Below, one piece after another: positions 28,009-59,916 of a stretch of DNA of 64,000 bases; the first letter of the stretch is position 1; each line of letters begins with the position of its first letter. Under the pieces are notes generated by a model, which ran no database searches, was not told the origin of the DNA, and worked only from the letters and a program-made list of their open reading frames with translations. Both the position numbers and the translations under genes were made by a program. Source of the stretch: Carboxydocella thermautotrophica (lineage in GTDB: Bacteria > Bacillota > GCA-003054495 > Carboxydocellales > Carboxydocellaceae); NCBI GenBank assembly GCA_003054495.1, contig CP028514.1:2434001-2498000 (forward strand). Direction: 5' to 3'.

Positions 28009-28641
28009 TTACAATTCTCTTACCCGGGAAACTCCCTGTTGCATTTCCACCAGAAAAGCTTTATCTCCACTCTGAGCCAGATGCTGATTATGGGTGACCA
28101 GGATTACCTGCCGCCCAAAGTTCTGGCTCAATTGTTTTAAAAACGTAGCTACTTGCAGGCTATATTCTTCCGAAACATGCTTGCCCGGTTCATCCAGGAG
28201 CAAGGGCCCTTCCAGTCCACATGCTTCCAGCAAAGCAATGCGCAGAGCTAAAGATACTACGTCCACCACTCCTCCGCCCCGCGCCTCCTGGGGCCGGGTT
28301 TCCACCCGATAACCCCCTTCATAGGTAGAGGTCAGGTAAAATTCAGCGCTGGGCTGCTTGTGTTTTTCCTCGATCTCCACCCGGAACTGGGTATCCCCCC
28401 CGAAAATAAATTGCAGGGCATTGGTCACCAGGGATTCAATCTGCTGGCGGGCCTGTTCCCGGGCAAATTCCGCCACCTCCTGCAGCAAAAGGCGGGCTTG
28501 CGTGGCATCATCCAGAGCCACCACCGTTTGAGCCAGTTCTTCTTTAACTTCCTGAAGCTGGCGCTCCAGCATCCTGTATTCCGCCTGCCGGCTCTGGCAA
28601 TAGCTCTCCCACTCCTTTAATCCTTGCCGCCAGTCGGACAT
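28009..28641 (-). CDS. Rad50/SMC-like ATPase, C-terminal half
   Basis: 210 residues. An N-terminal coiled coil (residues 1-75) leads into the C-terminal ATPase lobe: ARGGGVVDVVSLALRIALLEA is the ABC signature region, GPLLLDEPGKHVS is Walker B with D-loop, and ILVTHNQHLA carries the switch His. There is no Walker A; that is on the separate protein encoded at 28886-30211. The two must associate to make ATP sites. It starts one base after the stop of the small coiled-coil gene. In normal Rad50 both lobes are on one chain of 800-1000 residues; here the gene is split. Confidence 0.85.
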   Translation of the reverse strand: MSDWRQGLKEWESYCQSRQAEYRMLERQLQEVKEELAQTVVALDDATQARLLLQEVAEFAREQARQQIESLVTNALQFIFGGDTQFRVEIEEKHKQPSAEFYLTSTYEGGYRVETRPQEARGGGVVDVVSLALRIALLEACGLEGPLLLDEPGKHVSEEYSLQVATFLKQLSQNFGRQVILVTHNQHLAQSGDKAFLVEMQQGVSRVREL

Positions 28642-28642
28642 T

Positions 28643-28885
28643 TTAACCCCGCCCTTTCAACAGCTCCCAGGGGATTTTGCTTTCAATTTCCCGGGTCAAA
28701 GCCGCAATTTCCTCCTGCAGTTCCGCTAAGCGCGCCGGAGCTGCTTCGGGAGTTAAACCCAGTTCCGCAAAGCGGGTTTTTAGCTCTTCCTGTCTTTTTT
28801 CCAGCTCGGCTTTGCGCCCCAGAGCCATTTGTCGTAAACTCTGACATTTATCAATGGCTTCCTTTAGTTTCTTTAAATCCTCCAT
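28643..28885 (-). CDS. Small coiled-coil protein between the two Rad50-like halves
   Basis: 80 residues in helix-turn-helix form: MEDLKKLKEAIDKCQSLRQMALGRKAELEKRQEELKTRF, a Pro-containing turn (LGLTPEAAP), then a second helix. It has no ATPase motif. The ATG directly follows the stop of the N-terminal half gene, with GGAGG inside that gene, and its own stop is one base before the C-terminal half. Translation is therefore coupled and stoichiometric expression likely. It may form part of the returning coiled coil of a three-chain Rad50. No homologue recognised. Confidence 0.7.
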   Translation of the reverse strand: MEDLKKLKEAIDKCQSLRQMALGRKAELEKRQEELKTRFAELGLTPEAAPARLAELQEEIAALTREIESKIPWELLKGRG

Positions 28886-30211
28886 TTAAATAACCTCCTT
28901 CTCCCAACTCAGTTCAGCGGCAATGCTTTCCATAACTGCCTCTGGCAAGGGCTGTAAACAGGTGGGGCAGCTGCCCAGTTTCTTTAGATTCGCAACATAT
29001 TCTCCCACCAGACTCTGTATTTTTTCCTGTTGCTGTTTCAGCTCAGCCAGCAGGGTTTGTTCCTGTCGAACCAGCTCCTGCCAGTGGGTGAGTAATTCCT
29101 CCAGCAATCGGGCCCGCTCCTGTTTTTGTTGCAACTCTGACCATAGAGCCCGGGCCTCCTCTACCTGGCTGAGGGGACGCAATTCCCCTTCCAGGCGGCC
29201 CAGAGCTCCCTGCAGGCGTTGCCATTCCTCCCAGACCCGATGCAATTCCTGGTACTGACTTTGCAAGTTAATTCCCTGATCCCAGAGGGATAAGAGCTGA
29301 CCGGTTTTAGCTGTTGACTGCAGGATCTTTTCCTGTCCGGCCAGTTCCTGCCGCAATCTTTCCCATTCCCGTTGCAAGAGACTTACTCGCTGGTATTCCT
29401 CCGCCTTCTTTTCTGCTTCTACCAGCAGAGGCTTAGCATCTATCCCGGCGCTAATCTGCTCAATATAGGTACGCCCGGTAGCCAGGCGCTGTTCTACATC
29501 CTGCCATTCTGTTATTAATTGTTCCAGATAGGTTCTGTCTTTTTCCATTTCATCCAAACGGGAAGCCTGAATCTGAGTCTCCTGCAACCGGGCCAGCAGG
29601 TCCGGTAAATGGGAGTAACTCTGTAATTGCTCTTCCAGCCGCTCTTTTTCCTCCCCCAGACGCCGTTCCGTTTGCTGCAGGCGGTTGACATCTGAAACCA
29701 GACTGCGCTGAGCCGCATCCAGCAAATGTACTCCGGAGAGCCGGCCAATGGCTTTGGCCCGCAACTGCCCTATGCCACTGCCTTCCAGCAGGAAGGGGCC
29801 TTCCAATTGCTGGCCCAGATGCAAATACAGGCAGGTATTTTCATCTATTTGCAGGGGCTCAACCCCGGACAATTGCCGCACTTCAACCGGAACCTCCTGC
29901 CCGAAGCCTTCCAGAATCACCGGCTCTTCTCCTGTTTTTTCGATAATATAGCGGTTGCGTCTCAGGCTACGTTCCCGGGTGACCCGGCTGCCATCTGACC
30001 AGATTAAGGTTACTCTGGCCTCCTGGGTCCCGACCCGGATAAAATCAGTGCCCCTGGGCTCATTAAACAATACCCAGCGGATAGCCCGCATAATAGCAGA
30101 TTTTCCCTGGTCAGAAGGCCCAACGATAACATTCAGTTCCGGGCTGAGCTCCAGACGGGTATACTGGTGGGACTGAAAATTTTCGATCATCACTTCCCGT
30201 AAATATCTCAT
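28886..30211 (-). CDS. Rad50-like ATPase, N-terminal half ending at a zinc hook
   Basis: 441 residues. MIENFQSHQYTRLELSPELNVIVGPSDQGKSAIMRAIRWVLF holds the Walker A (GPSDQGKS); the Q-loop region is LYLHLGQQLEGPFLLEGSG near residue 135. Residues about 165-420 are coiled coil with one long helix series. Near the end comes LGSCPTCLQPLP, a CxxC zinc hook as in Rad50, and the protein stops about 25 residues later. The ATG overlaps the stop of the Mre11-like gene (ATGA). Together with the next two genes it should form a Rad50-type complex that opens DNA ends for the nuclease. Confidence 0.85.
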   Translation of the reverse strand: MRYLREVMIENFQSHQYTRLELSPELNVIVGPSDQGKSAIMRAIRWVLFNEPRGTDFIRVGTQEARVTLIWSDGSRVTRERSLRRNRYIIEKTGEEPVILEGFGQEVPVEVRQLSGVEPLQIDENTCLYLHLGQQLEGPFLLEGSGIGQLRAKAIGRLSGVHLLDAAQRSLVSDVNRLQQTERRLGEEKERLEEQLQSYSHLPDLLARLQETQIQASRLDEMEKDRTYLEQLITEWQDVEQRLATGRTYIEQISAGIDAKPLLVEAEKKAEEYQRVSLLQREWERLRQELAGQEKILQSTAKTGQLLSLWDQGINLQSQYQELHRVWEEWQRLQGALGRLEGELRPLSQVEEARALWSELQQKQERARLLEELLTHWQELVRQEQTLLAELKQQQEKIQSLVGEYVANLKKLGSCPTCLQPLPEAVMESIAAELSWEKEVI

Positions 30212-31188
30212 TCCACCGCCCCCAATCGCTCTTGTGCCTCCGCCAGTTTAGCCAGGGCCAAATGGCGTACTCTTTCCGGTATGCCATCCCGGCGGGCGAT
30301 TTCCTCAACAATTTCCTGCAAGCCATAGGCCTTGACCTGGCCTGCCTGCCGCACTTCGCTGACAAAAGCGGCCAGTTTGGCTTCCCGTACCGCTTGGGCC
30401 TCTGCTTTGCTGCGGTCCAGCACCTCGCTACCGGGTCGGGCAGTCTGCAGGGGAATTTTGCGGTAAGTGGGAGCACCACCACTGAAATCCAGCAAAAGCA
30501 CCTGAGGCTGGCGCTCCATTTCCCGGGGGTGATTGCTGAGACGGACCAGAGAGCCGGGATTGAGGAACCATTTGCCCTCCGCTTGCATATCCTTTATTCC
30601 CAGATGATTATGGCCACAGAGGGTGAAATCCGCTTCTGTGCTGGTGATCTGGTCCACCAGGGTATGGGCCATCCCTTCAATCCAGCGCTTCTCCAGCAAC
30701 ATACCATGGACCAGGTGCACAGCCACATCGCATTCTTCTTTAGTGACACAATAGTCCAGCCGGGGATCCCGCCGGTCCAGGTCCACGTGATAGCCGGTAC
30801 CGGTCAGCTGTAAACGGATCCCCTTATCCTGCAAATAGACCCGTTCACCAGGGGCCAGCAGTCGCACCAGCCCCAGCCGGGCCGCCAGGCCCAGCATGGT
30901 TCGATCCAGGGTGGCCAGGTTGTGACCGAAAAGATCGTGATTGCCGGCAATGCCATAGAACGGGACCCGTAATTGCTGGAATACCGCCAGGAATTCCCCG
31001 GCTACCCCTAAGGCCGGACTGGGCAGGTCAAAGAGGTCCCCACCATGGAGGACCGCACTGACTCCCAGGTCATGGGCCAGTTCCACCACTTCCTTTAACT
31101 TGGCCAAAAGGGTCTGAGGAAAATTATCCAGGCGGTTAACGGGACTGGTGCCCCGGATATGGGTATCGGTTAAAAACAGCAGTTTCAT
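30208..31188 (-). CDS. Mre11/SbcD-like DNA-repair metallophosphoesterase
   Basis: 326 residues. All five phosphoesterase motifs are seen: LTDTHIRG (D-x-H), HGGDLFDLP, AGNHDLFGHN, HLVHGML and CGHNHLG, which together bind two Mn2+ ions. The C-terminal 70 residues form a helical extension that would contact the Rad50 coiled coils. The ATG overlaps the herA stop by four bases (ATGA). Length is shorter than E. coli SbcD (400) and closer to archaeal Mre11. Expected activities are 3'-5' exonuclease and endonuclease at DNA ends. Confidence 0.88.
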   Translation of the reverse strand: MKLLFLTDTHIRGTSPVNRLDNFPQTLLAKLKEVVELAHDLGVSAVLHGGDLFDLPSPALGVAGEFLAVFQQLRVPFYGIAGNHDLFGHNLATLDRTMLGLAARLGLVRLLAPGERVYLQDKGIRLQLTGTGYHVDLDRRDPRLDYCVTKEECDVAVHLVHGMLLEKRWIEGMAHTLVDQITSTEADFTLCGHNHLGIKDMQAEGKWFLNPGSLVRLSNHPREMERQPQVLLLDFSGGAPTYRKIPLQTARPGSEVLDRSKAEAQAVREAKLAAFVSEVRQAGQVKAYGLQEIVEEIARRDGIPERVRHLALAKLAEAQERLGAVE

Positions 31189-33029
31189 GGCATCACCTCA
31201 TATTTTTTGCCAAAAGGTGTTGAGATTTCCCGACAACGTCCCTGACAGGCCAGATCGGCCAGAGCCGCCTTCACTTCCTCGATTGTGACTGCTCTGCCCA
31301 GCCTTTGCCCGATTTCCGGCAAATAGGACAACAGGCTGGCTTCATTTAGTGGTAAAAGTCCCAGTAAAATCTCACTCATTTTATCTTCCTCACTGGCAAA
31401 GTCCCGGCTGAGCTCAGTAAATGGGTTATGGCTATGGGGACTGCAAGTTTTGGCTGCCCGAATGCGCACCAGCAGGGAGCGCCCGTAAATTGCCGATGAG
31501 ACAAAACAGGTCCCAGACGGTAAATAGGGTAACCGGCGGGTTTCTTCCCGGGATAGGTCTGATTCCCGCTGAATCAGGTCAATATCCTGGGAGCGGGTAG
31601 TCCGGAATATGAATTTGGTATTGAGCTGGGCATTAATGGTTTCATCCAGCAACGCCGGCCGCTGGGTAGCCAGAATCAGAAACACTCCGTATTTCCGTCC
31701 CTCCTGGGCGATTTCCTTGAGAATGGAGCGAGCCGGGGCAGGAATCACCGGTGAAACCGGGGCAAAATTATGAGCCTCATCAGCCACGATAACAAAAGGC
31801 GGGAAAGGCTCTCCCGACCGCTCTCCCCGTTGCAGGGAATCCCTGTATTGCCGCCGTTTATCATAGAATTTTTTCAGCACATAAGCTGCAAAAATGTTCA
31901 GGGTAGTAACGGTGCCGCGGATTATTACCAGTTTGCGTTTGATAAGCTCCTCCTCTACCGGACGGATATCCCGGTGAAAGATACCGGTCTGTTCCAGACG
32001 GTTGAGCCGCCATTGAATACCGGCCAGAGTGCCCGGCCCGCTGATTCGGTCCTTGTATTCCTCCAGCAGCTCCTGAGCCTGGCGCACTTTCTCCGGGGTA
32101 AAGAGATCAGGGCTTTTCCTGAGTTTGCTCTCATTCTCCAGGGCCCAGCGCAGTTCTTCCAGGCGGGTTTTAAAGGTCTGAAGGCTATCCCGCCTCTGGT
32201 GCAAAGTGATGACGGCATTTTCCATAGCCTCACTTAAACTGCCTCCGGCGGCTGCCAGCAGATTGGCTACTTCAGCCCCATTCAATTCACTGAAATTAAC
32301 CCCTACTTCCTGGCCGATGGCAAAGAGTACAGCACGACGAGTCCATTCCCGCTGTAATCCTGGTGGCCAGCCTGCTACCTGTTGTTCAAAACTCATTTCC
32401 CAGTGCGGGTCTAGCACGATGGTGGGAATCCCCTGCTGCATCAGCTCTTCCAGCACCACCCGGGTACCAAAGGACTTACCCGAACCAGAGCCCCCGAAAA
32501 TCCCTAAATGGGGATACTGGTTCATGGCCTGGTAATTGAAAATAAAGGGCACCCCTTCCTGAGCCTGTAAACCCTCGCCATTCCACAGGGGCGCTATCTC
32601 TCGCAAACCCGCTGGCAGCTCCTGTCCCAGTTCCTCCGTTCCAGCGATTACCCCCAGGGTCAGCCCCGTATCCGGGCCGGTTTTTAACAACAGGGGTGCA
32701 ACTTCCTCAAATCGGGGCAAGCGTACTGGTGCAGCAAAAGCCACCGGCCAGCGAGCCTCGGTAAGCAGCCGTACCCGGGCCAGATGCACTACTTCCCGGC
32801 GTGGATCCAGCCCAATGGTCAATAGATTGGACAACAGCTGCCGATCCAGCACCGCCCCTTCTCCTTTGCTTCCCGATAAGAGGGGATGGTGGGACTGGCA
32901 CTCCACCACCTCACCGGTTAACAGACCCAGCTGTGGGTCCTCAATAATCAACAGCTCATTGGTGCGAAAAGGTCGGGTCTGATCCAGTACCCAGACCTCC
33001 TGAGGGGTAGTTGTTCCGATTACCTGCAC
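31185..33029 (-). CDS. herA: HerA-like hexameric DNA translocase/helicase
   Basis: 614 residues. An N-terminal beta-barrel region (VQVIGTTTPQEVWVLDQTRPF onward) fits the HAS barrel of HerA. The Walker A is GIFGGSGSGKSFGTRVVLEEL, Walker B FVIVADEAHNFAP, and the sensor region ILATQRPALLDETINAQLNTKFIFRT, which is diagnostic of HerA/FtsK-type ATPases. A helical insertion (about residues 310-380) lies between. The start is GTG 33029, seven bases after GGAGG and four bases after the nurA stop. In archaea HerA and NurA form a complex that resects DNA ends with Mre11-Rad50. Confidence 0.88.
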   Translation of the reverse strand: MQVIGTTTPQEVWVLDQTRPFRTNELLIIEDPQLGLLTGEVVECQSHHPLLSGSKGEGAVLDRQLLSNLLTIGLDPRREVVHLARVRLLTEARWPVAFAAPVRLPRFEEVAPLLLKTGPDTGLTLGVIAGTEELGQELPAGLREIAPLWNGEGLQAQEGVPFIFNYQAMNQYPHLGIFGGSGSGKSFGTRVVLEELMQQGIPTIVLDPHWEMSFEQQVAGWPPGLQREWTRRAVLFAIGQEVGVNFSELNGAEVANLLAAAGGSLSEAMENAVITLHQRRDSLQTFKTRLEELRWALENESKLRKSPDLFTPEKVRQAQELLEEYKDRISGPGTLAGIQWRLNRLEQTGIFHRDIRPVEEELIKRKLVIIRGTVTTLNIFAAYVLKKFYDKRRQYRDSLQRGERSGEPFPPFVIVADEAHNFAPVSPVIPAPARSILKEIAQEGRKYGVFLILATQRPALLDETINAQLNTKFIFRTTRSQDIDLIQRESDLSREETRRLPYLPSGTCFVSSAIYGRSLLVRIRAAKTCSPHSHNPFTELSRDFASEEDKMSEILLGLLPLNEASLLSYLPEIGQRLGRAVTIEEVKAALADLACQGRCREISTPFGKKYEVMP

Positions 33030-33033
33030 CCTT

Positions 33034-33987
33034 TTACCTCCTCTCCCGCATGGAGCGCAAAAATTTTTCCCGAACCTGTAAATCCAGGACATAGTCCAGC
33101 AAAGCATCAGTTTGTTGTCGGGTTAATTTCACCTTTTGATCGATTAGATCCAGCAACCAGGGAATGCCCCGGCCACCAGCAGGACAAAGGGAAATTACGA
33201 GAGCCGCTGCCAGCTGGGCCTTATTTTTCTGTTCAGCCAGCAAATCCAGGGCAATGGCCTGCGGATAGGTACCCGGGCGCAAAAAAACCGTATAATAGCG
33301 GTCTTTTACAGCCAAGGGACGATAGGGCAACAGCAGTTCTCCTTCCTGCAGCAAGTCATAGAGAATCTCCCGGTCATAAGCCCTTTGCCAGAGAGGGGGG
33401 GCCTTTTCCCCCAGTTCCTGGGCAATGGCATTGGTCCCTACTTCCTCGATTACACCTATCAGTAAAATATTCTCCTCCAGACAAAAGGAATAGAGCTGCT
33501 GCCAGCCTTCTGCCCAGGCTTGCTCCAGCCGTAAAAAACCGCCATCCAGCATGATGGCTCGGGGTTTTTGATGAAAGATGAGTTCCAGCAAGGTTTCCAG
33601 CTCCAGTTGGGCCAGATGCCGGTCCCGCAGGCGACTAAATGCCAGTTCCTGGCTCAAACCTTTTTCCCTTACCAGCTGCCTGACTTCTTCTTCCCCCTCA
33701 GCCAGGAGGGGGGTTATTACCCGCTGTTTCAGTTGTTCCCCGCCCTGGCTGGCCAGAGCCAGAGCCTGTAATAAAGCCAGCTGGTAAGGATAGTTGGCCC
33801 CAATAGTTTGCTGGGAGCCATCTATCCCTACTACCTGCCAGCCCTGCCAGGGTTTGTCCTGGAAAACTGGAATGGGTTTGAATTCACCAAAGCTATCAGC
33901 CAGCAGCTGGCGGCCTGCGGCCCGGTCAGGTGTCTTTTGCATACGCCTGAGCAGCTCCTGATTGAGTTCCAGCAAGTCCTCCCACAT
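33034..33987 (-). CDS. nurA: NurA-domain nuclease
   Basis: 317 residues. VVGIDGSQQTIGANYPYQLALLQALAL contains the first catalytic Asp of the NurA fold; AIMLDGGFLRLEQAW the second; ILLIGVIEEVGTNAIAQEL follows as the conserved strand-loop; the C-terminal PYRPLAVKDRYYTVFLRPG and HerA-contact region end the domain. NurA is an RNase-H-like 5'-3' nuclease acting with HerA. ATG 33987 has GGAGG seven bases upstream. It is the first gene of the six-gene operon. Identification rests on motif order and on herA directly downstream. Confidence 0.85.
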   Translation of the reverse strand: MWEDLLELNQELLRRMQKTPDRAAGRQLLADSFGEFKPIPVFQDKPWQGWQVVGIDGSQQTIGANYPYQLALLQALALASQGGEQLKQRVITPLLAEGEEEVRQLVREKGLSQELAFSRLRDRHLAQLELETLLELIFHQKPRAIMLDGGFLRLEQAWAEGWQQLYSFCLEENILLIGVIEEVGTNAIAQELGEKAPPLWQRAYDREILYDLLQEGELLLPYRPLAVKDRYYTVFLRPGTYPQAIALDLLAEQKNKAQLAAALVISLCPAGGRGIPWLLDLIDQKVKLTRQQTDALLDYVLDLQVREKFLRSMRERR

Positions 33988-47695: not shown

Positions 47696-48046
47696 TTATT
47701 TTTTGCGGTCAAAGAAAATGGCATCGGGAATGAAATTATTATCCGCTTCATAAGTCCAGACAGCTTTTCGGGCCTGTTGCTGAAATTTTATCTGACTGGC
47801 CAGTTCCTCTTTTGTCTTTAAAGCCAGCTCCAGCATCGCCTGATCTTTCTCTCTGATTGTGGTCATGAGATCGCTGTAAGCAGAAATATTATTTTCTTGG
47901 ACATTTCCTAGCCATTGCAATAAATCTCCGCGCTCCGTCAATAAGCCTTCCAGTTTATCTATTTCTTTATTCAACAATAGAGTGATGATCTCTTCTGTTA
48001 AATCGAGGAGACGGATCAGCACCCGTTCTATCTCATTTTGCCACAT
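47696..48046 (-). CDS. FliT-like flagellar chaperone candidate
   Basis: 116 residues, all helical (IERVLIRLLDLTEEIITLLLNKEIDKLEGLLTERGDLLQWLG). Size, helical nature and position directly after fliS fit FliT, the chaperone of the cap protein FliD, although sequence similarity in this family is low. ATG 48046 overlaps the fliS stop by 14 bases. GAGG lies eight bases upstream. Confidence 0.65.
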   Translation of the reverse strand: MWQNEIERVLIRLLDLTEEIITLLLNKEIDKLEGLLTERGDLLQWLGNVQENNISAYSDLMTTIREKDQAMLELALKTKEELASQIKFQQQARKAVWTYEADNNFIPDAIFFDRKK

Positions 48047-48449
48047 TCAGGCCACCTCGGACCATGCTGTTATTGTTGTTTTTTGCAATCAGGGCAGCCT
48101 GGGCAAAAGCCTCTTTCAGTTCTTTGAAAAAACCAATAACCTCATTAATGATAGTTGCATCTTTTTTAATATTGGCTTCAATTAAACGACGATTCATATA
48201 ATCGTAAAGAGCTGCTAAATTTTCCGCAATGGGATAACTCCTGTCCAGGGTTGCCAGTAGTTCCAGGACTATATTTTGGGCCTTTACCAGGTTGGTATGA
48301 GCTTCACTGATATCCTTCTGCTCTATTGCCTGAACAGCTTTTTGACAGAACCTGATCCCACCATCCAGAAGCATTAAAAGGAGTTTTTCCGGGGTTGCCG
48401 TGTTTATTTGGTTATCAAGATATTGTTGATACGGATTGGTTACTGTCAT
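48033..48449 (-). CDS. fliS: Flagellin export chaperone FliS
   Basis: 138 residues. NPYQQYLDNQINTATPEKLLLMLLDGGIRFCQKAVQAIEQKDISEAHTNLVKAQNIVLELLATL is a full FliS match. FliS binds flagellin in the cytoplasm and delivers it to the flagellar export gate; in Bacillota it also frees FliW. GGGGG precedes the ATG. Follows fliD. Confidence 0.93.
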   Translation of the reverse strand: MTVTNPYQQYLDNQINTATPEKLLLMLLDGGIRFCQKAVQAIEQKDISEAHTNLVKAQNIVLELLATLDRSYPIAENLAALYDYMNRRLIEANIKKDATIINEVIGFFKELKEAFAQAALIAKNNNNSMVRGGLNVAK

Positions 48450-48467
48450 TACTTAATCCCCCGCTTT

Positions 48468-49961
48468 CTATTTTCCGCCACCAAACTGGGAAGCTAACCA
48501 GCTGCTTTGTGCGTTCATCATGTTAATAGCCCGCTCTAAAGCTGCAAATTGTCGATAGTAGCGGTCTTCTTTTTCTTTTAAACGATCTTCTGCTGCGCTA
48601 ATTCTGTTATTAATTTCTTTAAGTTCTTTTCCAAGGGTGCTATTATCAACCAAACTATATGTGTAAATTGACCCCGCTTTAGCTGAAAATTTGTTAATTT
48701 GGTTGCTGATCTCATCATATAAACGTATGGCTATCCCTTTTTCCGCTATTACTGTACTATCCTTACGGAAAATGTTCATCACATCATCAGGGTTGGTATT
48801 CAGTTTTTCTCTTAATTTCGACTCGTTCAAATAAAGTTTGCCATTTTCCTGATATAAGCCAGTAGTAATACCAATCTGGGATAACTGGTTGAAACTACTG
48901 GGTAGGCCCTGGATAATACTGCTTAACACACTCCTCATCCCACCCAGCGCAGAACTTATTAAACTATCTCCTTTCAGCAAGCCGCTTCGGGCTTTTTCTT
49001 CCCATTTTTGTTGCATAGTTTCGGAGAGCTGTTGCCGCTGTTCGTCAGTCAAAGGCAGGTAATCCTTATAACGCTCTTCCGAAAACTTTTTGTTAAAAAG
49101 CTCAATAGTTTCATTGTATTTGTCAACAAAACTTTTTATTTTGGCTACTACCGAATCCACATCAGCATTAACACTAATATTAACCGGTGTAGCAGATTCG
49201 CTTTTTAAATCTAAGGTTATACCAGCGATTGTAACCTGATTGCTGCCAAAGGTTAAATTGGTTGCATCATTAAAATCAATTATCGCATTTTTCCCTATGA
49301 CTTTCGTTGTATCATTATTTGCAGCATCAAGGGATACATTGAGTTTTAAAGTATTGGTTAAAAAATTGGCACCGTCACTGCCTGCTACTGTACCGGAAAA
49401 ATCGATTTGTGCTGTCGCTCCAATAGCAGTAGTTACCAAATAAAGTCTGTCTGTTGTAGTGTCATAAGAAGCATTAACCCCTGCTCCCGCAGCATTAATT
49501 TTGCTCACAACTTGATTAATATTATCACCGGCATTAATTGTAATATCTTTACCATTTAATCGAAAAGTTAAATTAACCGCTGTCAGACTCTGACTGGGAT
49601 TAGCCGCAACCCCCAGTGCCGCTGTTGATGATTTGCTTGCTCCCTGGGCCAAACTATGCACAGTCACTTTATAATTACCTACAACTGCTGCTGAACTGGC
49701 ATAGGCTTGAACGACCTTTTCATCTGCAGATGTAGCTTTTTTGGCCCGAAAAGTCCCTTCCAGTTTCAGGTTAAAAACTTCATTACGTAATGCAGCCAGT
49801 GCCGAATTCAAACTGCGATAATCTTCTTTTTTCCATTCGATAATCTGTTTCTGCTGTTTTAATTTATCGACTGGTATTCGTTCTGCTTTCATTAAATCTT
49901 TGATGATTTGATCTGTATCCAGGCCTGTAGCCAGACCTCCAATCCGCAAGTTACCACTCAT
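48468..49961 (-). CDS. fliD: Flagellar cap protein FliD
   Basis: 497 residues. The N-terminal D0 domain (MSGNLRIGGLATGLDTDQIIKDLMKAERIPVDKLKQQKQ) and C-terminal helices (NKFSAKAGSIYTYSLVDNSTLGKELKEINNRISAAEDRL and YYRQFAALERAINMMNAQSSWLASQF) are typical of FliD. FliD caps the growing filament and inserts flagellin. ATG 49961 is eight bases after GGGTG; the GTG at 49970 is possible. Follows flaG. Confidence 0.92.
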   Translation of the reverse strand: MSGNLRIGGLATGLDTDQIIKDLMKAERIPVDKLKQQKQIIEWKKEDYRSLNSALAALRNEVFNLKLEGTFRAKKATSADEKVVQAYASSAAVVGNYKVTVHSLAQGASKSSTAALGVAANPSQSLTAVNLTFRLNGKDITINAGDNINQVVSKINAAGAGVNASYDTTTDRLYLVTTAIGATAQIDFSGTVAGSDGANFLTNTLKLNVSLDAANNDTTKVIGKNAIIDFNDATNLTFGSNQVTIAGITLDLKSESATPVNISVNADVDSVVAKIKSFVDKYNETIELFNKKFSEERYKDYLPLTDEQRQQLSETMQQKWEEKARSGLLKGDSLISSALGGMRSVLSSIIQGLPSSFNQLSQIGITTGLYQENGKLYLNESKLREKLNTNPDDVMNIFRKDSTVIAEKGIAIRLYDEISNQINKFSAKAGSIYTYSLVDNSTLGKELKEINNRISAAEDRLKEKEDRYYRQFAALERAINMMNAQSSWLASQFGGGK

Positions 49962-49981
49962 GGTATTCACCCACTTTCAAA

Positions 49982-50326
49982 TCAGGCCTTTTTGTCTACA
50001 ATAATTCCGGCTAGCTCCCAGAGTTTTGCGATGATGTCCAGTAATTTTTTGGGTGGAATCTCCCGGATAACTTCTTTTGTTTTATCATCAATCACCGAAA
50101 TGACCACTTGATTAGTCGGTTTGTGTACTTCATATTCAAAATGTCTTTCTGATCCTTCCAAAACTTTATTTGCCTTTTCTATAACCAGTTGCAACATTTG
50201 CTCCTGGTTTTCAATCTTCATATCAGTCTGCTGTTGACTTTCTTCCGGCAACTTCGCTTCTTTATTAATCCTGGCTGGCTCAATATTATTAACATTATTA
50301 ACCAGCACCCGATTATCAATCTTCAT
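49982..50326 (-). CDS. flaG: FlaG family flagellar protein
   Basis: 114 residues. The C-terminal HFEYEVHKPTNQVVISVIDDKTKEVIREIPPKKLLDIIAKLWELAGIIVDKKA is the FlaG domain, which affects filament length. ATG 50326 follows GGAGGG. First of the flaG-fliD-fliS-fliT operon; an upstream CGATAA is present, but the -35 partner is poor. Confidence 0.88.
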   Translation of the reverse strand: MKIDNRVLVNNVNNIEPARINKEAKLPEESQQQTDMKIENQEQMLQLVIEKANKVLEGSERHFEYEVHKPTNQVVISVIDDKTKEVIREIPPKKLLDIIAKLWELAGIIVDKKA

Positions 50327-50418
50327 GATAATCCCTCCGCACAATTATCCTTAAATTTATTATCGTAAACAACCCAAAAAAAACAAATGCCATCTGGCTT
50401 AAATAACTCTTATTCTCA

Positions 50419-51534
50419 TTATTTTTTAGCTGTTCTAATGGCTTTTTTTATAACATTGACTACATAATCGATTTCAGTTTCAGATAAATTATTATGAAAA
50501 GGTAGGGCTACAGTTTTGCTGGCTATTTTTTCACATACAGGAAAATCCCCTTTGCGGTATCCAAATGTCTCACAATAAAAAGGTTGTAAATGTATGGGTT
50601 CAAAATAAGCCCGGCAGGCAACCCCTTCAGCTTGCAATTCATGCATAAATAACTCCCGGTTAATATTTTCCGCTAATGTAATCACATAAACAAACCAGCT
50701 TATTTTATTTTCCGGTTTTACTTCAGGTATCTTGATTTCATCCAGCTCTTTTAATCGCATATTATATTCCTGTGCTACTTTTTCCCTCTTGGCCATAATC
50801 TCCTCAATCCGGCTCAACTGAGCTAAACCCAGGGCACAGCTCATCTCATCCATTCTGTAATTATAGCCCAATCGTTCATGTATCAGCCAGCGTCCCTCTT
50901 TACCCCGGCCCTGATTGCGCATAGAACGGCAAAGTTCGGCAATATCATCCCTGTCTGTTACGATAATCCCACCCTCACCGGTGGTCATCTGTTTGTTGGG
51001 ATAGAAAGCAAATACCGCTGCTTCCCCAAAGCTTCCTGCTTTTCTGCCTTTATATTCGGCTCCTATTGCCTCACAGGCATCCTCAATAATCGTGAGATTG
51101 TATTTGGCAGCGATCTCTCGGATTCTATCCATTTCACAACACTGTCCAAAAACATGGACCGGTAAAATAGCCCTGGTTTTTTCAGTTATGGCAGCTTCAA
51201 TCTTGTTTGGGTCCAGATTATATGTCTCAGGTTCAATATCCACAAACACAGGGCGAGCGCGCTCAAATAACAGGCAGTTGGCACTGGCAACAAAACTAAA
51301 AGGGGTAGTAATTACCTCATCCCCTTCCTGGATCCCCAATGCTCTAACTGCCAAATGCAAGCCACTAGTACCACTGTTAACAGCGATGGCGTGTTTTACG
51401 CCTGTATATTCTGCCATCCGGGTTTCAAATTCAATCATCCTGGGCCCTAAAGCTAATTGCCCTGAGCGTAAAACCTCCACAACCATGTCTATTTCCCTCT
51501 CCGTTATATCCGGAGCTGAAAGCGGTATCTTCAT
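50419..51534 (-). CDS. DegT/DnrJ/EryC1 sugar aminotransferase (LegC-like)
   Basis: 371 residues, fold-type I PLP enzyme: NSGTSGLHLAVRALGIQEGDEVITTPFSFVAS, EDACEAIGAEYKGRKAGSFG, and FYPNKQMTTGEGGIIVT with the PLP lysine (K188 region). In the legionaminic pathway LegC adds the 4-amino group to the keto-sugar made by LegB. Last gene of the glycan operon; GGAGG precedes ATG. Sugar identity inferred from neighbours (pseudaminic acid also possible). Confidence 0.85.
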   Translation of the reverse strand: MKIPLSAPDITEREIDMVVEVLRSGQLALGPRMIEFETRMAEYTGVKHAIAVNSGTSGLHLAVRALGIQEGDEVITTPFSFVASANCLLFERARPVFVDIEPETYNLDPNKIEAAITEKTRAILPVHVFGQCCEMDRIREIAAKYNLTIIEDACEAIGAEYKGRKAGSFGEAAVFAFYPNKQMTTGEGGIIVTDRDDIAELCRSMRNQGRGKEGRWLIHERLGYNYRMDEMSCALGLAQLSRIEEIMAKREKVAQEYNMRLKELDEIKIPEVKPENKISWFVYVITLAENINRELFMHELQAEGVACRAYFEPIHLQPFYCETFGYRKGDFPVCEKIASKTVALPFHNNLSETEIDYVVNVIKKAIRTAKK

Positions 51535-51539
51535 CTAGT

Positions 51540-52178
51540 TTACCTCCGTTTCTCAAGCTGTCTGGCCGGAACCCCCACTACCGTAGATCTGGGCAGAACA
51601 TCGGAAATCACCACAGCACCAGCTCCTATCACCGCCTCTGCCCCAATTTTTATGTTTTGAATAACGGTAGCACCAATACCAACATGGGCACCCCGGCCAA
51701 CCTGGACTTTACCAGCCAATCTAGCACCGGGCGAAATATGTACATTATCTTCAATTATATTATCATGTTCAACTATGGCTCCAGTGTTGATTATTACATT
51801 GGAACCAATTTGCACATCGGTGTTAACAATACTGCCAGCTGCAATTACATTATTGACCCCCATTCTGACAGTAACACTAATCAGGGCTGATGGGTGAATG
51901 GCATTGATGAATTTCAGTCCAGCTTTTTTTGCTTGTTCAGCCATTTGCGCCCGCGCCTGATTGTCTCCGATAGCAATTATACAGTCTGTATAGCCAGCCT
52001 CCTTTAATCCCGGCAATTTTTCGATATTACCTATGACAGGTATATTTTTTATTTTTTGCCCGAACAATTGCGGATTCTGGTCTACAAAAACAATATCCTC
52101 CCACTGGGATTGTGCTAAAACTATATCCAGCACCACCCGCCCATGCCCACCAGCTCCTACAATAATCAACTTAGCCAT
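51540..52178 (-). CDS. Sugar O/N-acetyltransferase of the NeuD/PglD type
   Basis: 212 residues. An N-terminal Rossmann-like part (KLIIVGAGGHGRVVLDIVLAQ) and a left-handed beta-helix of hexapeptide repeats (VRMGVNNVIAAGSIVNTDVQIGSNVIINTGAIVEHDNIIEDNVHISPGARLAG) with catalytic His in VEHDN. It acetylates the amino sugar precursor (LegH role). ATG 52178 follows GGTGGGGG; earlier GTG rejected. Sits between legC-like and neuC-like genes. Confidence 0.88.
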   Translation of the reverse strand: MAKLIIVGAGGHGRVVLDIVLAQSQWEDIVFVDQNPQLFGQKIKNIPVIGNIEKLPGLKEAGYTDCIIAIGDNQARAQMAEQAKKAGLKFINAIHPSALISVTVRMGVNNVIAAGSIVNTDVQIGSNVIINTGAIVEHDNIIEDNVHISPGARLAGKVQVGRGAHVGIGATVIQNIKIGAEAVIGAGAVVISDVLPRSTVVGVPARQLEKRR

Positions 52179-52192
52179 TTTAACCCCCACCA

Positions 52193-53323
52193 TTAATAGG
52201 CTATCTGTTTATTTAATAAATCCCGATTTATCTCAATCCTGGCCAGTAAATCTGCAACTCTTGGGCCGGTTTTACCATCTCCATATGGATTATCATAAGT
52301 TCGACGCCCATCTTTAAGTGCTTTTATAATAGCAGCATAAATCATTTCCTCATTATAATCGACATCAATCACATTCGTTGCTCTCTCTCTACCAGCTTGA
52401 CGAGATCCAATATTTATAACCGGTAAACCGCAGCTGGGGGCCTCAATAATTCCACTGCTGGAATTTCCTATCAACACAGCAGCAATCTGCATTAAACCCA
52501 GAAAATCGGCAGAAGGGATGCTGGGAAAGGTTTGCAGCCAGGCCCTATTTTGGTATTGCCTAATTATTTCCAGCATCCGCAGGTGCCCGGCATCGGAATT
52601 GGGATGGATGAGAATAGTTGGCAACTGTAGCCGTTCCAGCGCCCGCATTGTCTGTTCCATTTGCCAGCCTGCCTCAGTATATTCCCAGTTGACCGGATGC
52701 TGTAAAACCAGTAGCAAAGGCCTTTTCTCATCGATCCGATATTTTTGTACGAGAATTTCTCTGGCGGTATATTGTTTATTGATAATATAATCCAACCCGG
52801 CTGCTCCGACGACATAGATATTTTCCGGTTTTTCCCCCATTTTAATCAGTCTTTCTCTGCTGCTTTCAGTGGCAGGAAAGTGAATATGGGCCAGTTTGGT
52901 AATTGCATGACGGACCGACTCATCGATCGTTCCTGAAACTTCTCCACCATGTAAGTGGACAACAGGAATACCCAGGTGAGAAAAAACAATGGCTGCAGCC
53001 AGCATTTCCCCCCTGTCCCCCAGTACCAGTCCCAAATCAGGTTCAAGCTGACCTATTGCTTCTGTCAACCCCAGAATCGCCCGACCAATAGCCTTTGCCA
53101 TCTCGTCTGGACCGTCCGTTTCAGAGAGAATGGGTACTTCCGCTGCTATGGCAAAACCATCTTGCCTGATTTGTTCAATAGTCCGCCCAAAACGGGTGTG
53201 CAAATGCATACCTGTTACTATTAACTGCAAACTTAATTCCTGGTGCTGGCTGATAGCTGTCAAAATCGGTTTATAAATACCATAATCGGCTCTGGTGCCG
53301 GTAATTACAGCAATTTTCCTCAT
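52193..53323 (-). CDS. neuC: UDP-sugar-hydrolysing 2-epimerase (NeuC/LegG-like)
   Basis: 376 residues. KIAVITGTRADYGIYKPILTAI and VLGDRGEMLAAAIVFSHLGIPVVHLHGGEVSGTIDESVRHAITKLAHIHFPATE are diagnostic of hydrolysing UDP-GlcNAc 2-epimerases. LIGNSSSGIIEAPSCGLPVINIGSRQAGR is the UDP-binding region. It releases the nucleotide and produces the ManNAc-type sugar for condensation by NeuB. GAGGTGAATT before ATG. Confidence 0.92.
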   Translation of the reverse strand: MRKIAVITGTRADYGIYKPILTAISQHQELSLQLIVTGMHLHTRFGRTIEQIRQDGFAIAAEVPILSETDGPDEMAKAIGRAILGLTEAIGQLEPDLGLVLGDRGEMLAAAIVFSHLGIPVVHLHGGEVSGTIDESVRHAITKLAHIHFPATESSRERLIKMGEKPENIYVVGAAGLDYIINKQYTAREILVQKYRIDEKRPLLLVLQHPVNWEYTEAGWQMEQTMRALERLQLPTILIHPNSDAGHLRMLEIIRQYQNRAWLQTFPSIPSADFLGLMQIAAVLIGNSSSGIIEAPSCGLPVINIGSRQAGRERATNVIDVDYNEEMIYAAIIKALKDGRRTYDNPYGDGKTGPRVADLLARIEINRDLLNKQIAY

Positions 53324-53337
53324 AATTCACCTCAAAA

Positions 53338-54372
53338 TCATTCGAGCATATCCCAGGTCAATGGCTGATCGGGTGCAATATCCACTTTTGCCTTTCTGCC
53401 AATGACCTTGCTATATAACCCTGGTTCAATCCCAGTACCCGGTCTCTTAATAGCAATCATATCTTCTCGAATAGTCACCCCGCTGGGAATAAACTGACTG
53501 GAAACGATACTCTTTCGTGCTACAAGTTTATTGGCCGTCTCTATTTCTGTACATTCCTTCCTTTTGTTGCCCAGTGCTTTTTCTACATTTCTGATTTGCC
53601 GTACCATTAAAGTTAATTCCTCGGGATTGAGGGAAGCCTGCTGGTCTGGGCCCGGCAGGTTTTTGTCCAGAGTAAAATGCTTTTCGATAACGATCGCTCC
53701 CAGGGCAACTGCAGCTACTGCTACTTCCGTCCCCAGTGTATGGTCGGAATATCCTACCATCGGCCCAAACTTTTCTTGTAGTAAGTTGATCGCTCGCAAA
53801 TTTACTATTTCTACAGGAGTTGGATAAGCAGTTGTGCAATGCAATAAAACAAGAGGGCAGTTGGAAAGTATTTGAACCGCTTCGGTTATTTCTGATAAAT
53901 TAGCCATCCCCGTAGATAAAATAACGGGTTTGCCAAGGGAGTTGATTTTATGCAAAAAAGGCTGGTTATTCAAATCTCCGGAACTGATCTTAAACAACTC
54001 TACCCCTAACGAATGTAGAAATAACAAACTCTCTTCATCAAAAGGTGTAGACATGAAACGGATTCCCTTAGCCTGACAGTAGGCAAACAGCTCATAATGG
54101 TCCTGTTCACTTAACTCAAGTTTTTTTAACATAGCAAACTGGGATTCCCTGGTTTCAGTAGATTTCTTCTGGTAATCTGCTTTTGGCGCATTTCTGGTCA
54201 CCAGTTTCTCTGCTTTAAAAGTTTGAAATTTGATAGCATCAGCCCCTGCTGCAGCTGCCACATCTATCATTTTTTTCGCTAATTGCAGGTCTCCATTGTG
54301 ATTAACCCCTGCTTCAGCAATGATAAAAACTGGCTGTTCGGGCCCAATTTGCCTATCCTTTAATACAATCAT
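53338..54372 (-). CDS. neuB: Nonulosonic-acid synthase (NeuB/LegI-like)
   Basis: 344 residues. The NeuB TIM barrel (FIIAEAGVNHNGDLQLAKKMIDVAAAAGADAIKFQTFKAEKL; MVGYSDHTLGTEVAVAAVALGAIVIEKHFTLDK) and the C-terminal SAF antifreeze-like domain (VARKSIVSSQFIPSGVTIREDMIAIKRPG) are both complete. It condenses phosphoenolpyruvate with the six-carbon amino sugar to give the nine-carbon acid. ATG 54372 is eight bases after GGAGG. Confidence 0.93.
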   Translation of the reverse strand: MIVLKDRQIGPEQPVFIIAEAGVNHNGDLQLAKKMIDVAAAAGADAIKFQTFKAEKLVTRNAPKADYQKKSTETRESQFAMLKKLELSEQDHYELFAYCQAKGIRFMSTPFDEESLLFLHSLGVELFKISSGDLNNQPFLHKINSLGKPVILSTGMANLSEITEAVQILSNCPLVLLHCTTAYPTPVEIVNLRAINLLQEKFGPMVGYSDHTLGTEVAVAAVALGAIVIEKHFTLDKNLPGPDQQASLNPEELTLMVRQIRNVEKALGNKRKECTEIETANKLVARKSIVSSQFIPSGVTIREDMIAIKRPGTGIEPGLYSKVIGRKAKVDIAPDQPLTWDMLE

Positions 54373-54391
54373 GCGCATTTCCTCCTGACTC

Positions 54392-55411
54392 TCAGTCAGT
54401 CGCCCGTTTGTACAGTAAACCTAATCGATATAACATTTCTTTAATCTCTGTTTTAGTCAGCAAGGGTCCGGCATCGGAACGATAGGCCTGATACTGACCT
54501 TCGGTATTATAACTGGCCGGATCGATACTGGGGTAAATAACAAACATACCGGGTAGTTCCACTGCCCGTGTAGCCTCATCAGCTGTCATCAATTCTTCAT
54601 GGGGTTTTTCTCCAGCTCGCAAACCAATAACCTCGATTCTGATATCCCTGGCTGTATAATTATGTTTTGGCGCAACCTCTTCGATTATCACTTCCGCCAG
54701 ATCTCCCAGCCTTAAAGCTGGCATTTTCAGAATAAAGGTCTCCCCGCCCCGAGCGATTTCTCCTGCTTTCAGGACCAGTGCCACTGCCTCGGGAATGGAC
54801 ATCATAAACCTGGTCATCTCCGGATCAGTTATAGTTAAAGGTCCACCCCGGGCAACCTGTTGGATAAACAAAGGAATGACTGACCCCCTGGACCCCATAA
54901 CATTGCCAAAACGCACACAGGCAAAAACAGTTTTCCTGGCTCCTTTATAGTAATTGGCAGCAGCCATGAGTTTCTCTGCTAATAGTTTGGTTGCCCCCAT
55001 GGTATTGGTAGGATTAGCTACCTTGTCTGTACTGATGGCAATTACCCGTTCCACTTCTTCATCAAGAGCACATTCAATAATATTCTGGGTACCAAGGACA
55101 TTGGTCTTAACTGCCTCAAAGGGATTATACTCACAGGCAGGAACATGTTTCAGAGCCGCCGCATGAAAAACAACATCAATCCCTTCCATAGCCCGTTTGA
55201 GTCTTTCCTTGTCCCTGATATCCCCCAGTAAATAGCGGATATTGGTATGTGAACGAAACTCATGTTGTAGTTCAAACTGTTTCGATTCATCCCGACTATA
55301 AAGGCGAATAACTTCAGGCTGAAATTGCAAAAGCTGCCTGACCAGTTCACTGCCAATCGTGCCTGTTCCCCCGGTCACCAGGATGCGTTTTCCTTTATAA
55401 ATCTCTTCCAT
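54392..55411 (-). CDS. UDP-GlcNAc 4,6-dehydratase (LegB/PseB-like)
   Basis: 339 residues, extended SDR. GKRILVTGGTGTIGSELVRQLLQF binds NADP; FHAAALKHVPACEYNPFEAVKTNVLGTQNII and ISTDKVANPTNTMGATKLLAEKL give the active site with the M-x3-K variant of the catalytic motif, as in PseB/LegB and the CapD group. First step of the pathway. Overlaps the first maf gene stop by 17 bases. Confidence 0.9.
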   Translation of the reverse strand: MEEIYKGKRILVTGGTGTIGSELVRQLLQFQPEVIRLYSRDESKQFELQHEFRSHTNIRYLLGDIRDKERLKRAMEGIDVVFHAAALKHVPACEYNPFEAVKTNVLGTQNIIECALDEEVERVIAISTDKVANPTNTMGATKLLAEKLMAAANYYKGARKTVFACVRFGNVMGSRGSVIPLFIQQVARGGPLTITDPEMTRFMMSIPEAVALVLKAGEIARGGETFILKMPALRLGDLAEVIIEEVAPKHNYTARDIRIEVIGLRAGEKPHEELMTADEATRAVELPGMFVIYPSIDPASYNTEGQYQAYRSDAGPLLTKTEIKEMLYRLGLLYKRATD

Positions 55412-56699
55412 CCTCTTGCCGCCTCCTTAAGGCAAAACGCCAGTAACTCGCCAGTGGTTCATGCCGCCAACCAGGAATATATGCTCCGCCTTCCGTACAG
55501 TTCCAGAGTAATTCCTTTCCAGGAAACATAAGGGCATAATTCTCAAACCATTTGAGGTAAGAAAACAAATTGAGGGAAGTAGGTACCTTGCCCCGCTGAT
55601 CATAACCATCTACCCAGAGTAAGCTATGATCCGCGATTATCTGCCGTGCCGCCACCGTATCTGCTGCATGACTGTAACCGTCTGTATAAGCCAGGTCCTG
55701 TCCAACCAGGCCAACAGAGGATGCACCCAATTTCACCAGTAGATCCAGCAAACAGGTAGCTACTGAGCCACCGGTTAAAATAAGGGGTTGATTGCGTTTC
55801 TCTGCTTCCAGTTCCGCAGGTGCAAACCCTTTTTGCCAGACAATATACCTTGGCCCCTGATAACTGGCCACTACAGAATGATTTGCCGTTGAAAGATAAA
55901 ACAAAGGTGGAAGTGGTAAATTAATTTCTACATTAAATTGTTCACTAATTTTTTCATTGGGGTCAGAAATCATTACCAGGTCCGGTATTATACCTGCCTT
56001 AACCAGGGGCTTCAGGGCTGTACCCACTGTCGCAATTTTAATAGAGCCTTCTGCAGCAATTTCTTTTAAAATCGAGAGTTGTTTGGTTAGAGACGGTCCT
56101 GCCGAGACCAGAAGAACAGGGCTGCCGTTGATGAATTTATTGCAAGCTGTAAGACCAGGATCGTTTAAAGTAAGATTGTGAGCAAAATTTTCTTCAAGTA
56201 ACTTTTTCTGATTTTTATAAGCTCTCTGTTGTAAAAGATAACTTTCCAGGACTTTTTTAACTGGTGACAGAGCCTCAGACATCAGGGCCAGAGAATGATT
56301 GTGAATAAAAACCATATTTTCAGGAGCCAGAAGCAAAGGTAATAATATATTCTTTATTTCTTCTATATTTTCACTGCAATAGATTTTAACTCTCTCGGAC
56401 AGTCTGAGCAGGTGTTGTTCTTTTATCCAATTATAGAAGTGCGGGTTAAATTCCCATACTGTTATAGGAAAATCGGGGTATTGTTCAGCCAGAATATGGA
56501 CATGATAACCCAGCCCCAGCCCGATTACCACCAGGGCCTGAGGGTGACCGGTCATCATCTCTGTCCAGCCTTTAACCCACTGCTCGGCTTCACGTAAAGG
56601 GTCGTATTTACTGTGTAAATAGATTTCCTTATTTCCCTCTCTGATTTTTACCGTCGGCAAACCAGTTCTGCTTATAATTTTCTCCCAGGTAATGCTCAT
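55395..56699 (-). CDS. Motility accessory factor (Maf/DUF115), flagellin glycosyltransferase-like
   Basis: 434 residues. The DUF115 core: VVIGLGLGYHVHILAEQYPDFPITVWEFNPHF, VLLVSAGPSLTKQLSILKEIA, GLVGQDLAYTDGYSHAADT and LLWNCTEGGAYIPGWRHEPL. Maf proteins attach pseudaminic or legionaminic acid to Ser/Thr of flagellin before export. It is shorter than the second Maf (57030-58814). The ATG overlaps the stop of the small gene upstream (ATTA). Confidence 0.88.
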   Translation of the reverse strand: MSITWEKIISRTGLPTVKIREGNKEIYLHSKYDPLREAEQWVKGWTEMMTGHPQALVVIGLGLGYHVHILAEQYPDFPITVWEFNPHFYNWIKEQHLLRLSERVKIYCSENIEEIKNILLPLLLAPENMVFIHNHSLALMSEALSPVKKVLESYLLQQRAYKNQKKLLEENFAHNLTLNDPGLTACNKFINGSPVLLVSAGPSLTKQLSILKEIAAEGSIKIATVGTALKPLVKAGIIPDLVMISDPNEKISEQFNVEINLPLPPLFYLSTANHSVVASYQGPRYIVWQKGFAPAELEAEKRNQPLILTGGSVATCLLDLLVKLGASSVGLVGQDLAYTDGYSHAADTVAARQIIADHSLLWVDGYDQRGKVPTSLNLFSYLKWFENYALMFPGKELLWNCTEGGAYIPGWRHEPLASYWRFALRRRQEDGRDL

Positions 56700-57037
56700 T
56701 AATTATCCAACCACTCTTCCAGGACTGGTACAATCTCATATTCCAGCAGATCGCCCAGCAGAATATAATCGCGGTTAGCGAGAGCTGACTCCAGTTCCGA
56801 AAAATGCATAGTTAATTTGCTTGGATCAATCTCTGTTAAAAGGCCAAATTTTTGCAATTCACTTACAGCAGTGATAACCCACTCTAATCCTTCAATGGCT
56901 GCCGGCAGTAATTGCATGGCACTGGCTTCATCAGCAGTATGAAATTGCTCGGCAATTTTTTGACAACCTGCAATCAATTTGGGCAGATATTCCGCCAAAC
57001 TGGCCATGGTTTCATTTAGTAAATCTTCTTTATTCAT
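56699..57037 (-). CDS. Small helical protein between the two Maf genes
   Basis: 112 residues, all helical, acidic, without Cys pairs or membrane segments (LAEYLPKLIAGCQKIAEQFHTADEASAMQLLPAAIEGLEWVITAVSELQKFG). Similar small genes are sometimes seen next to Maf genes in Clostridia. ATG 57037 follows AGAGG; ATG 57043 is also possible. It could be a partner or chaperone for Maf/flagellin; function not known. Confidence 0.7.
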   Translation of the reverse strand: MNKEDLLNETMASLAEYLPKLIAGCQKIAEQFHTADEASAMQLLPAAIEGLEWVITAVSELQKFGLLTEIDPSKLTMHFSELESALANRDYILLGDLLEYEIVPVLEEWLDN

Positions 57038-58814: not shown

Positions 58815-58835
58815 TTCCATTTCTCCTTAAAACTA

Positions 58836-58877
58836 ATACTAAAATAGGCAACCTGTAAAGGCTGCCTATTTTAGTAT
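58836..58877 (-). terminator. Terminator after the flagellin gene
   Basis: GATACTAAAATAGGCAGCC pairs with GGTTGCCTATTTTAGTATT (one G-T wobble) in a stem of about 18 pairs, followed by an AT-rich tail. The symmetric stem also fits an mRNA-stabilising end. Confidence 0.8.
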
Positions 58878-58891
58878 CAATCATAAACTTA

Positions 58892-59716: not shown

Positions 59717-59725
59717 AATTTTTCA

Positions 59726-59794
59726 TCCTCCTTGATATTATTTTTCGGCATCCATGCCGAAATTTTTCCCGCCGTCATCCGGCCGCTATGACGG
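59726..59794 (-). promoter_or_regulatory. CsrA-binding leader of hag (three GGAUG sites)
   Basis: On the minus strand CCGTCAT-N9-ATGACGG (59794-59772) shows GGATG at the loop edge. TTTCGGCAT-GG-ATGCCGAAA (59762-59743) exposes ATGGAT at the tip. A third GGATG overlaps the AGGAGG ribosome site (about 59731-59725). This matches CsrA target architecture, as in B. subtilis hag. Confidence 0.75.
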
Positions 59795-59815
59795 TGGGTG
59801 ATTTGCTCAATAATA

Positions 59816-59842
59816 TTATCGTGAGATGATAATTTTTATTTA
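59816..59842 (-). promoter_or_regulatory. Sigma-28 (SigD/FliA) promoter of hag
   Basis: TAAA (59842-59839), 15-base spacer, CACGATAA (59823-59816), close to the TAAA-N15-GCCGATAA consensus. The transcript would have a leader of about 95 bases. Confidence 0.85.
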
Positions 59843-59916
59843 CATCGTATTTCAGAAAATATATGCATTCTAGATTGTTTATAAAAAAATATCTCCTGAT
59901 TACTCTGATTGACAAC

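Follow-up and report, generated by a model that had tools for sequence, protein, structure and literature searches.

A putative NurA-HerA-Mre11 resection operon with a Rad50 encoded by three genes in Carboxydocella thermautotrophica and other Bacillota

A 64,000-nucleotide stretch of Carboxydocella thermautotrophica DNA (GenBank assembly GCA_003054495.1, contig CP028514.1, positions 2,434,001 to 2,498,000; hereafter the window) carries an operon of six genes at 28009-33987, encoding a NurA-domain nuclease, a HerA-like translocase, an Mre11-like phosphoesterase and a Rad50 divided into three polypeptides. The operon, of a type known chiefly from archaea, probably serves the housekeeping resection of DNA double-strand breaks, with a new variant of Rad50, in place of AddAB, the usual enzyme of bacteria, and SbcCD, and we assign a probability of roughly 0.72 to this reading. 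It is built on the gene set and its order, their conservation and co-occurrence, the absence of AddAB and SbcC, and the motifs and repeats of the proteins, all of which are directly visible in the sequences.

The genes lie on the minus strand and are transcribed from 33987 to 28009, in the following order (a.a., amino acids; PDB, Protein Data Bank; AF2, AlphaFold2).

33034-33987, minus strand: NurA nuclease, 317 a.a. (Pfam PF09376)
31185-33029, minus strand: HerA DNA translocase, 614 a.a., GTG start (Pfam PF01935, NCBIfam, AF2 model and Foldseek)
30208-31188, minus strand: Mre11-like phosphoesterase, 326 a.a. (Metallophos_2, NCBIfam, PDB Mre11/SbcD)
28886-30211, minus strand: Rad50N, 441 a.a., with the ATPase N-lobe, the arm and a CPTC zinc-hook motif (AAA_23, PDB Rad50, Foldseek)
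28643-28885, minus strand: CC80, 80 a.a., putative coiled-coil or helical-hairpin protein (conserved between Rad50N and Rad50C)
28009-28641, minus strand: Rad50C, 210 a.a., with a short coil and the ATPase C-lobe (PDB Rad50 C-lobe, PHROG, alignment)

These coordinates confirm a preliminary description of the window, which had reported six same-direction genes joined by ATGA overlaps or gaps of at most 4 bases: NurA and HerA are separated by 4 bases, HerA/Mre11 and Mre11/Rad50N share ATGA overlaps, Rad50N and CC80 abut without a gap, and a single base separates CC80 from Rad50C. The ribosome-binding sites are good for NurA, HerA and CC80, and weaker for Mre11, Rad50N and Rad50C. The order of all six genes is kept in distant genomes, at identities of about 25-60%, which rules out a chance arrangement. 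In its own genome the operon is present in a single copy, and its G+C content at third codon positions (GC3), used as a test for foreign origin, is the same as that of the neighbouring genes.

Judged from its sequence, the Rad50 of this operon represents a conserved form in three pieces, which has a signature of its own and is common to cells and phages. The preliminary description had noted "Rad50-like parts" but missed that the split is the unusual feature, and its term "archaeal-type" holds for the gene set and not for Rad50. Each of the three genes is separately started. Rad50N matches AAA_23 in Pfam (4.1e-12), the Rad50 N-lobe in the PDB (2e-5) and, in Foldseek, Rad50 (1.5e-6), and its Walker A motif is the non-canonical GPSDQGKS (G.SD.GKS). 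The CP.C hook motif is found in 80 of the 81 Rad50N relatives, with a median distance to the C-terminus of 21 residues, and the CPTC of the window protein lies 26 a.a. from its C-terminus. The structure model of Rad50N had a predicted template modelling score (pTM) of 0.34, and the topology of the arm was not taken from it. Rad50C matches the Rad50 C-lobe chain 3qkr_B (8e-7) and PHROG_15167 (3.8e-64), and carries the non-canonical signature RGGGVVD, the Walker B motif LLLDEP and the H-loop THN; LSGG is found in none of 84 Rad50C sequences, and RGGG followed by two aliphatic residues and D in 74 of them. CC80 is conserved between Rad50N and Rad50C at both cellular and phage loci and holds a conserved G-V-x-P-E-E-L turn, which suggests a helical-hairpin shape. 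It belongs to no known family, and the PDB search returned only designed repeats and generic coils.

Two ATPase lobes (matching PDB Rad50 chains A and B), an arm and a CxxC hook, as expected of Rad50/SbcC, are thus present, but the single polypeptide running from N-lobe through coil, hook and coil to C-lobe is replaced by three genes in the cellular and most phage loci. A two-chain Rad50 head is feasible, since the PDB entries of the Pyrococcus furiosus Rad50 head (1f2t, 1ii8, 3qkr) list chains A and B separately. In the open-access papers searched, which cover NurA-HerA of Deinococcus-Thermus and of archaea, neither Rad50 nor SbcC is described as split, most subscription journals being outside this search.

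Repeats of 47 residues follow one another along the Rad50N arm. Their number differs among relatives by whole repeats, without a change in the length of the other pieces, and the distances from Walker A to the hook fall into classes near 383, 429 and 478 residues. The self-comparison of 75 arms peaked where the sequences were offset by 47 residues and showed a harmonic at 94, with a z-score that is inflated by the relatedness of the arms. The window arm alone, which has four 47-residue repeats with tryptophans exactly 47 apart, gave z-scores of 5.6 at the offset of 47 and 3.7 at that of 94, and eight full-length Rad50 arms showed no 47-residue peak in the same self-comparison. The outgoing coil of ordinary Rad50 is paired lengthwise with the returning one, and a change in the length of one should therefore be matched by the other. 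The lengths of Rad50C and CC80 did not covary with that of the Rad50N arm (Spearman -0.13, p = 0.28), suggesting that the arm of the N-chain is paired in another way than in ordinary Rad50.

The other three proteins proved to be those named in the preliminary description, by profiles in each case and for HerA also by fold. Mre11 matches Metallophos_2 in Pfam (5.6e-14), its best family in NCBIfam is Mre11_Halo (1.3e-12), and the profile of its family matches solved Mre11/SbcD structures (best 1.5e-9); the motif residues D8, H10, D51, N83, H84, H161, H193 and H195 are invariant or nearly so. HerA matches the HerA central domain PF01935 (2.5e-14; 54.3 bits, cut-off 23.2). Its assignment was more doubtful at first because the FtsK and AAA_10 profiles match this protein as well, and the preliminary description had named a closer relationship to VirB4/FtsK as the finding that would overturn it. 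Both comparisons favoured HerA. The HerA profile of NCBIfam scored 7.3e-16 against 3e-5 and 0.03 for VirB4 and FtsK, and the AF2 model (predicted local distance difference test 88, pTM 0.80), with an N-terminal barrel and a RecA-like core, retrieved Sulfolobus HerA first in Foldseek (1.6e-27) and Thermococcus HerA next, ranks 1-4 all being archaeal HerA, followed by defence and Deinococcus HerA. The predicted NurA passes the PF09376 cut-off (E-value 6.3e-15; 55.8 bits, cut-off 21), and all 18 aligned relatives match the NurA family. Sequence and profile searches of the PDB gave no match for NurA, so the support for its identity comes from Pfam. In its relatives D56, E129, D148, K228 and R314 are invariant, and D56-G57-S58 forms a DGS motif. 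The catalytic Asp of NurA is D53 in Deinococcus radiodurans and D58 in Sulfolobus, and K201 and R309 are known in the D. radiodurans protein (PMC9960219, PMC4641729), to which D56, K228 and R314 were likened by position only.

To follow the operon through the phylum, the loci of NurA-positive genomes in a panel of 300 Bacillota genomes were typed with profiles built from the operon. The Pfam NurA model matched 57 genomes, and NurA-HerA was accompanied by Mre11-Rad50 in 52 of the 300, so that the earlier statement that such a set is unusual in Bacillota needs qualifying. The single six-gene operon (type A) was found in 23 genomes (two of them, G087 and G123, assigned by a matching NurA-Rad50C distance on one contig and by genus). 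NurA-HerA lay apart from the rest in 19 genomes (type B), all 19 of which have a second locus with Mre11-Rad50N-CC80-Rad50C. The archaeal layout, with HerA, NurA and a full-length Rad50 of about 855 a.a., was found in 10 genomes (type C; G121 and G229 assigned by genus). The window-type NurA-HerA clade is present in 42 panel genomes, and the split Rad50 in 42/42. Matches to the Rad50C profile with E-values below 1e-70 came from all 42 genomes of types A and B and from no others of the panel, and the HerA profile was equally specific among the 41 genomes searched with it. In several families NurA is present in all sampled members (f30, 10/10; f39, 6/6; f92, f50 and f41, 3/3 each).

Several further loci were observed in this survey. 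The other NurA matches were weak or beside very divergent HerA-like proteins; at L063, L065 and L068-L071 they adjoin very divergent HerA-like ATPases and possibly belong to HerA defence systems. Second, diverged split-Rad50 sets occur at L117, L119 and L120 in genomes already holding the operon (G108, G295 and G070); the one at L117 clusters with phage forms and is possibly a prophage. A split Rad50 is found with no NurA of the window clade at L116 (G209) and L118 (G098), the G209 Mre11 grouping with phages in the Mre11 tree, and Natroniella (L015, L016) has Mre11 and a split Rad50, with no NurA-HerA within the stretch fetched, in a type B-like layout.

The preliminary description had asked whether addAB or sbcCD are also present in related genomes. 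In the C. thermautotrophica genome itself AddAB and SbcC were both absent: AddB was not found, the SbcC profile search found nothing, and the best AddA score, 2.4e-25, was at the level of UvrD-type helicases. AddA was called absent where the best E-value with one profile exceeded 1e-40. By this threshold, the genomes lacking AddA are 16/23 of type A, 12/19 of type B, 5/10 of type C and 36/248 of the others; by genome, 28 of the 42 window-clade NurA-HerA genomes thus lack it against 36 of the 248 without NurA-HerA (p = 1e-11). When collapsed to families, with the negative side counted conservatively, the figures are 10/17 against 24/106 (p = 0.006). In one genome (G044; L122:5952-8054), a single 700-a.a. 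open reading frame (ORF) joins Mre11 with the Rad50N and Rad50C lobes, lacks the arm, hook and CC80 together, and lies directly upstream of addB. The Mre11-Rad50 of the window family therefore adjoins NurA-HerA in one setting and AddAB in another. Two RecJ-family genes scored above the cut-off in the C. thermautotrophica genome (G000:C1:1763996-1765465 and 2350608-2352215).

In the mechanism that we propose, Mre11 and the three-polypeptide Rad50 would recognise and open the DNA end, the HerA ring translocase would pump the duplex into the NurA dimer, and the NurA dimer would digest the duplex so that RecA receives a 3' single-stranded tail. Rad50N and Rad50C would form one ABC ATPase head with the N- and C-lobes joined in trans, the arm would lie mainly on Rad50N as 47-residue modules with the CPxC zinc hook at the end, and CC80 may be part of the arm, either as its cap or as a link to the short coil of Rad50C. 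The fusions of Mre11 with Rad50N in phages, and with Rad50N and Rad50C in G044, tie the pieces together and favour this repair machine, and archaeal Mre11 binds both Rad50 and HerA (PMC2288612). More tentatively, these sets might constitute a distinct class of Mre11-Rad50, with a three-subunit Rad50 whose arm is a ruler of 47-residue modules on one chain and is not paired lengthwise with the C-terminal chain of the same Rad50; instead, two Rad50N chains, linked at the zinc hook, may form the rod as a parallel coil. In Bacillota such a class would be tied to NurA-HerA and serve generally in place of AddAB/SbcCD.

Several points weigh against the resection role. The interaction of the operon proteins and their action on DNA are predictions from sequence. 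Thermococcus HerA-NurA cut both strands, and a role in resection has been doubted (PMC12977600). An AddA-like gene is kept in 14 of the 42 NurA-HerA genomes, so that the replacement of AddAB is a tendency and not a rule. The distribution is patchy in some families (f54, 3/5; f17, 3/9), and the same-order relatives G051 and G090, both only 83-85% complete, are without the window-type HerA, making horizontal gain possible. In addition, an invariant Asp (D283) seems to stand here against the invariant His that ends the archaeal-type panel NurA (GYP..L..AH), the columns being matched by eye; the profile comparison of the two NurA types was weak, spanning 72 columns only and not the D283 site. The earlier claim that all catalytic motifs are present accordingly holds in part: NurA retains D56-G57-S58, E129, D148, K228 and R314, D283 seems to be a departure, and the signature and Walker A of Rad50 are non-canonical.

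Relatives of Rad50C were found on 24 viral contigs, most with Rad50N, a CC80-like ORF and Mre11, and neither NurA nor HerA was detected on these contigs within the stretch fetched. Two partial matches were the only ones to HerA in phages, indicating that HerA is not commonly phage-borne. Mre11 is fused to Rad50N in four viral contigs, and in one of 218,948 bp (L076:2624-6660), presumably Bacillus phage 0305phi8-36, the fusion is accompanied by a CC80-like ORF and by Rad50C in a separate gene. A 2011 paper on the Mre11/Rad50 (SbcDC) fusion of phage 0305phi8-36 reported one P-loop segment as not observed (PMC3175470). The split Rad50 seems to account for this "missing P-loop", which would lie in the separate Rad50C gene. 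In Microbacterium phage Magritte (L125:1-2377), a Rad50C-like exonuclease, a 122-a.a. hypothetical protein and an ASCE ATPase stand in a row, and the split Rad50 may thus extend to actinobacterial phages in reversed order.

The same split Rad50 and Mre11 on many viral contigs without NurA-HerA, and PHROG matches of the operon proteins at 3.8e-64 and 9e-59, would fit a phage-derived recombination cassette that bacteria captured and that is only incidentally adjacent to NurA-HerA. We consider this unlikely, since 42/42 genomes pair the split Rad50 with NurA-HerA, 19 of them although the two are unlinked, and such pairing is not incidental. Moreover, the Mre11 tree puts the cellular forms on one side and the phage forms on the other (Shimodaira-Hasegawa-like approximate likelihood ratio test, 99 each), without revealing the direction, and even if the Rad50 pieces came from phages, they could still serve in repair.

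The preliminary description had left the choice between housekeeping repair and defence, and a module degrading phage or plasmid DNA, like Sir2-HerA, DUF4297-HerA or MADS, has some support: in PADLOC, Rad50C matches mad3 (6.4e-14) and HerA matches mad8 (1.9e-22) and defence HerA families, defence HerA structures come close behind archaeal HerA in Foldseek, and an antiviral role has been suggested for Thermococcus HerA-NurA (PMC12977600). However, NurA matches no defence family in PADLOC and Mre11 only one, weakly (0.006), and the closest fold to the window HerA is the archaeal repair HerA. The anti-correlation with AddA is not required of a defence module. The immediate neighbours of the operon encode a rhodanese-domain protein and a coiled-coil protein, neither being a defence gene (PADLOC was not run on the wider neighbourhood). 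The presence of the operon in all sampled members of several families, as one copy of native GC3, makes defence less likely than housekeeping repair, and we regard it as improbable.

It is very hard to credit that stop read-through or frameshifting makes the three Rad50 ORFs a single ordinary gene, or that the split is a sequencing artefact: although Rad50N and CC80 share a frame in the window with a single TAA between them, CC80 is preceded by its own strong ribosome-binding site, the split is seen again in dozens of independent assemblies, and read-through into one chain is no general explanation because the junctions differ in length and frame among genomes (-41 to +202 bases) and an AP2-domain gene sits between Rad50N and CC80 in Bacillus phage vB_BboS-125.

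Elsewhere in the window, 48000-60000 is AT-rich (G+C about 0.40-0.45, flanked by about 0.50-0.53) and was possibly acquired.

Bacterial NurA-HerA has been placed in a few bacteria such as Deinococcus-Thermus, and whether it acts in break resection or against viruses is debated (PMC9960219, PMC12977600). In Bacillota it is spread over many families, in every case together with Mre11-Rad50 and in most without AddAB, so that bacterial genetics could put the resection role to the test. Such a Rad50, split by nature into lobes, arm and a small third protein, would allow the head, the arm length and the hook to be dissected separately, which bears on the response of Rad50 arms to ATP.

Among known systems, bacterial SbcCD and T4 gp46/47 combine an Mre11-type nuclease, a Rad50-type ATPase and a CxxC hook, as the window operon does, but SbcC is one long chain, unlike the Rad50 described here. 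Mad3 of the MADS defence system is a compact ATPase, its N part matching Rad50N and its C part Rad50C; it is one short chain, however, and other MADS components were not seen beside the window operon. The Mre11/Rad50 (SbcDC) fusion of Bacillus phage 0305phi8-36 probably belongs to the same family as the window Rad50 set. Deinococcus-Thermus carries bacterial NurA-HerA in lineages described as being without RecBCD/AddAB (PMC9960219), similar to the window genome, whereas Deinococcus NurA-HerA has been described as acting without Mre11-Rad50 (PMC12977600) and the window clade always has the split Mre11-Rad50. The archaeal HerA-NurA-Mre11-Rad50 locus of Sulfolobus, Pyrococcus and Thermococcus has the same four functions in one operon and the closest HerA fold. 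The window set differs from it in the three-piece Rad50, the altered ABC signature and Walker A, the modular arm, CC80 and a divergent NurA; other panel genomes, among them G035 and G152, combine the archaeal layout with a full-length Rad50, showing that both kinds exist in Bacillota. By analogy, the window operon most likely works like the archaeal machine, with a variant in the place of the ordinary Rad50.

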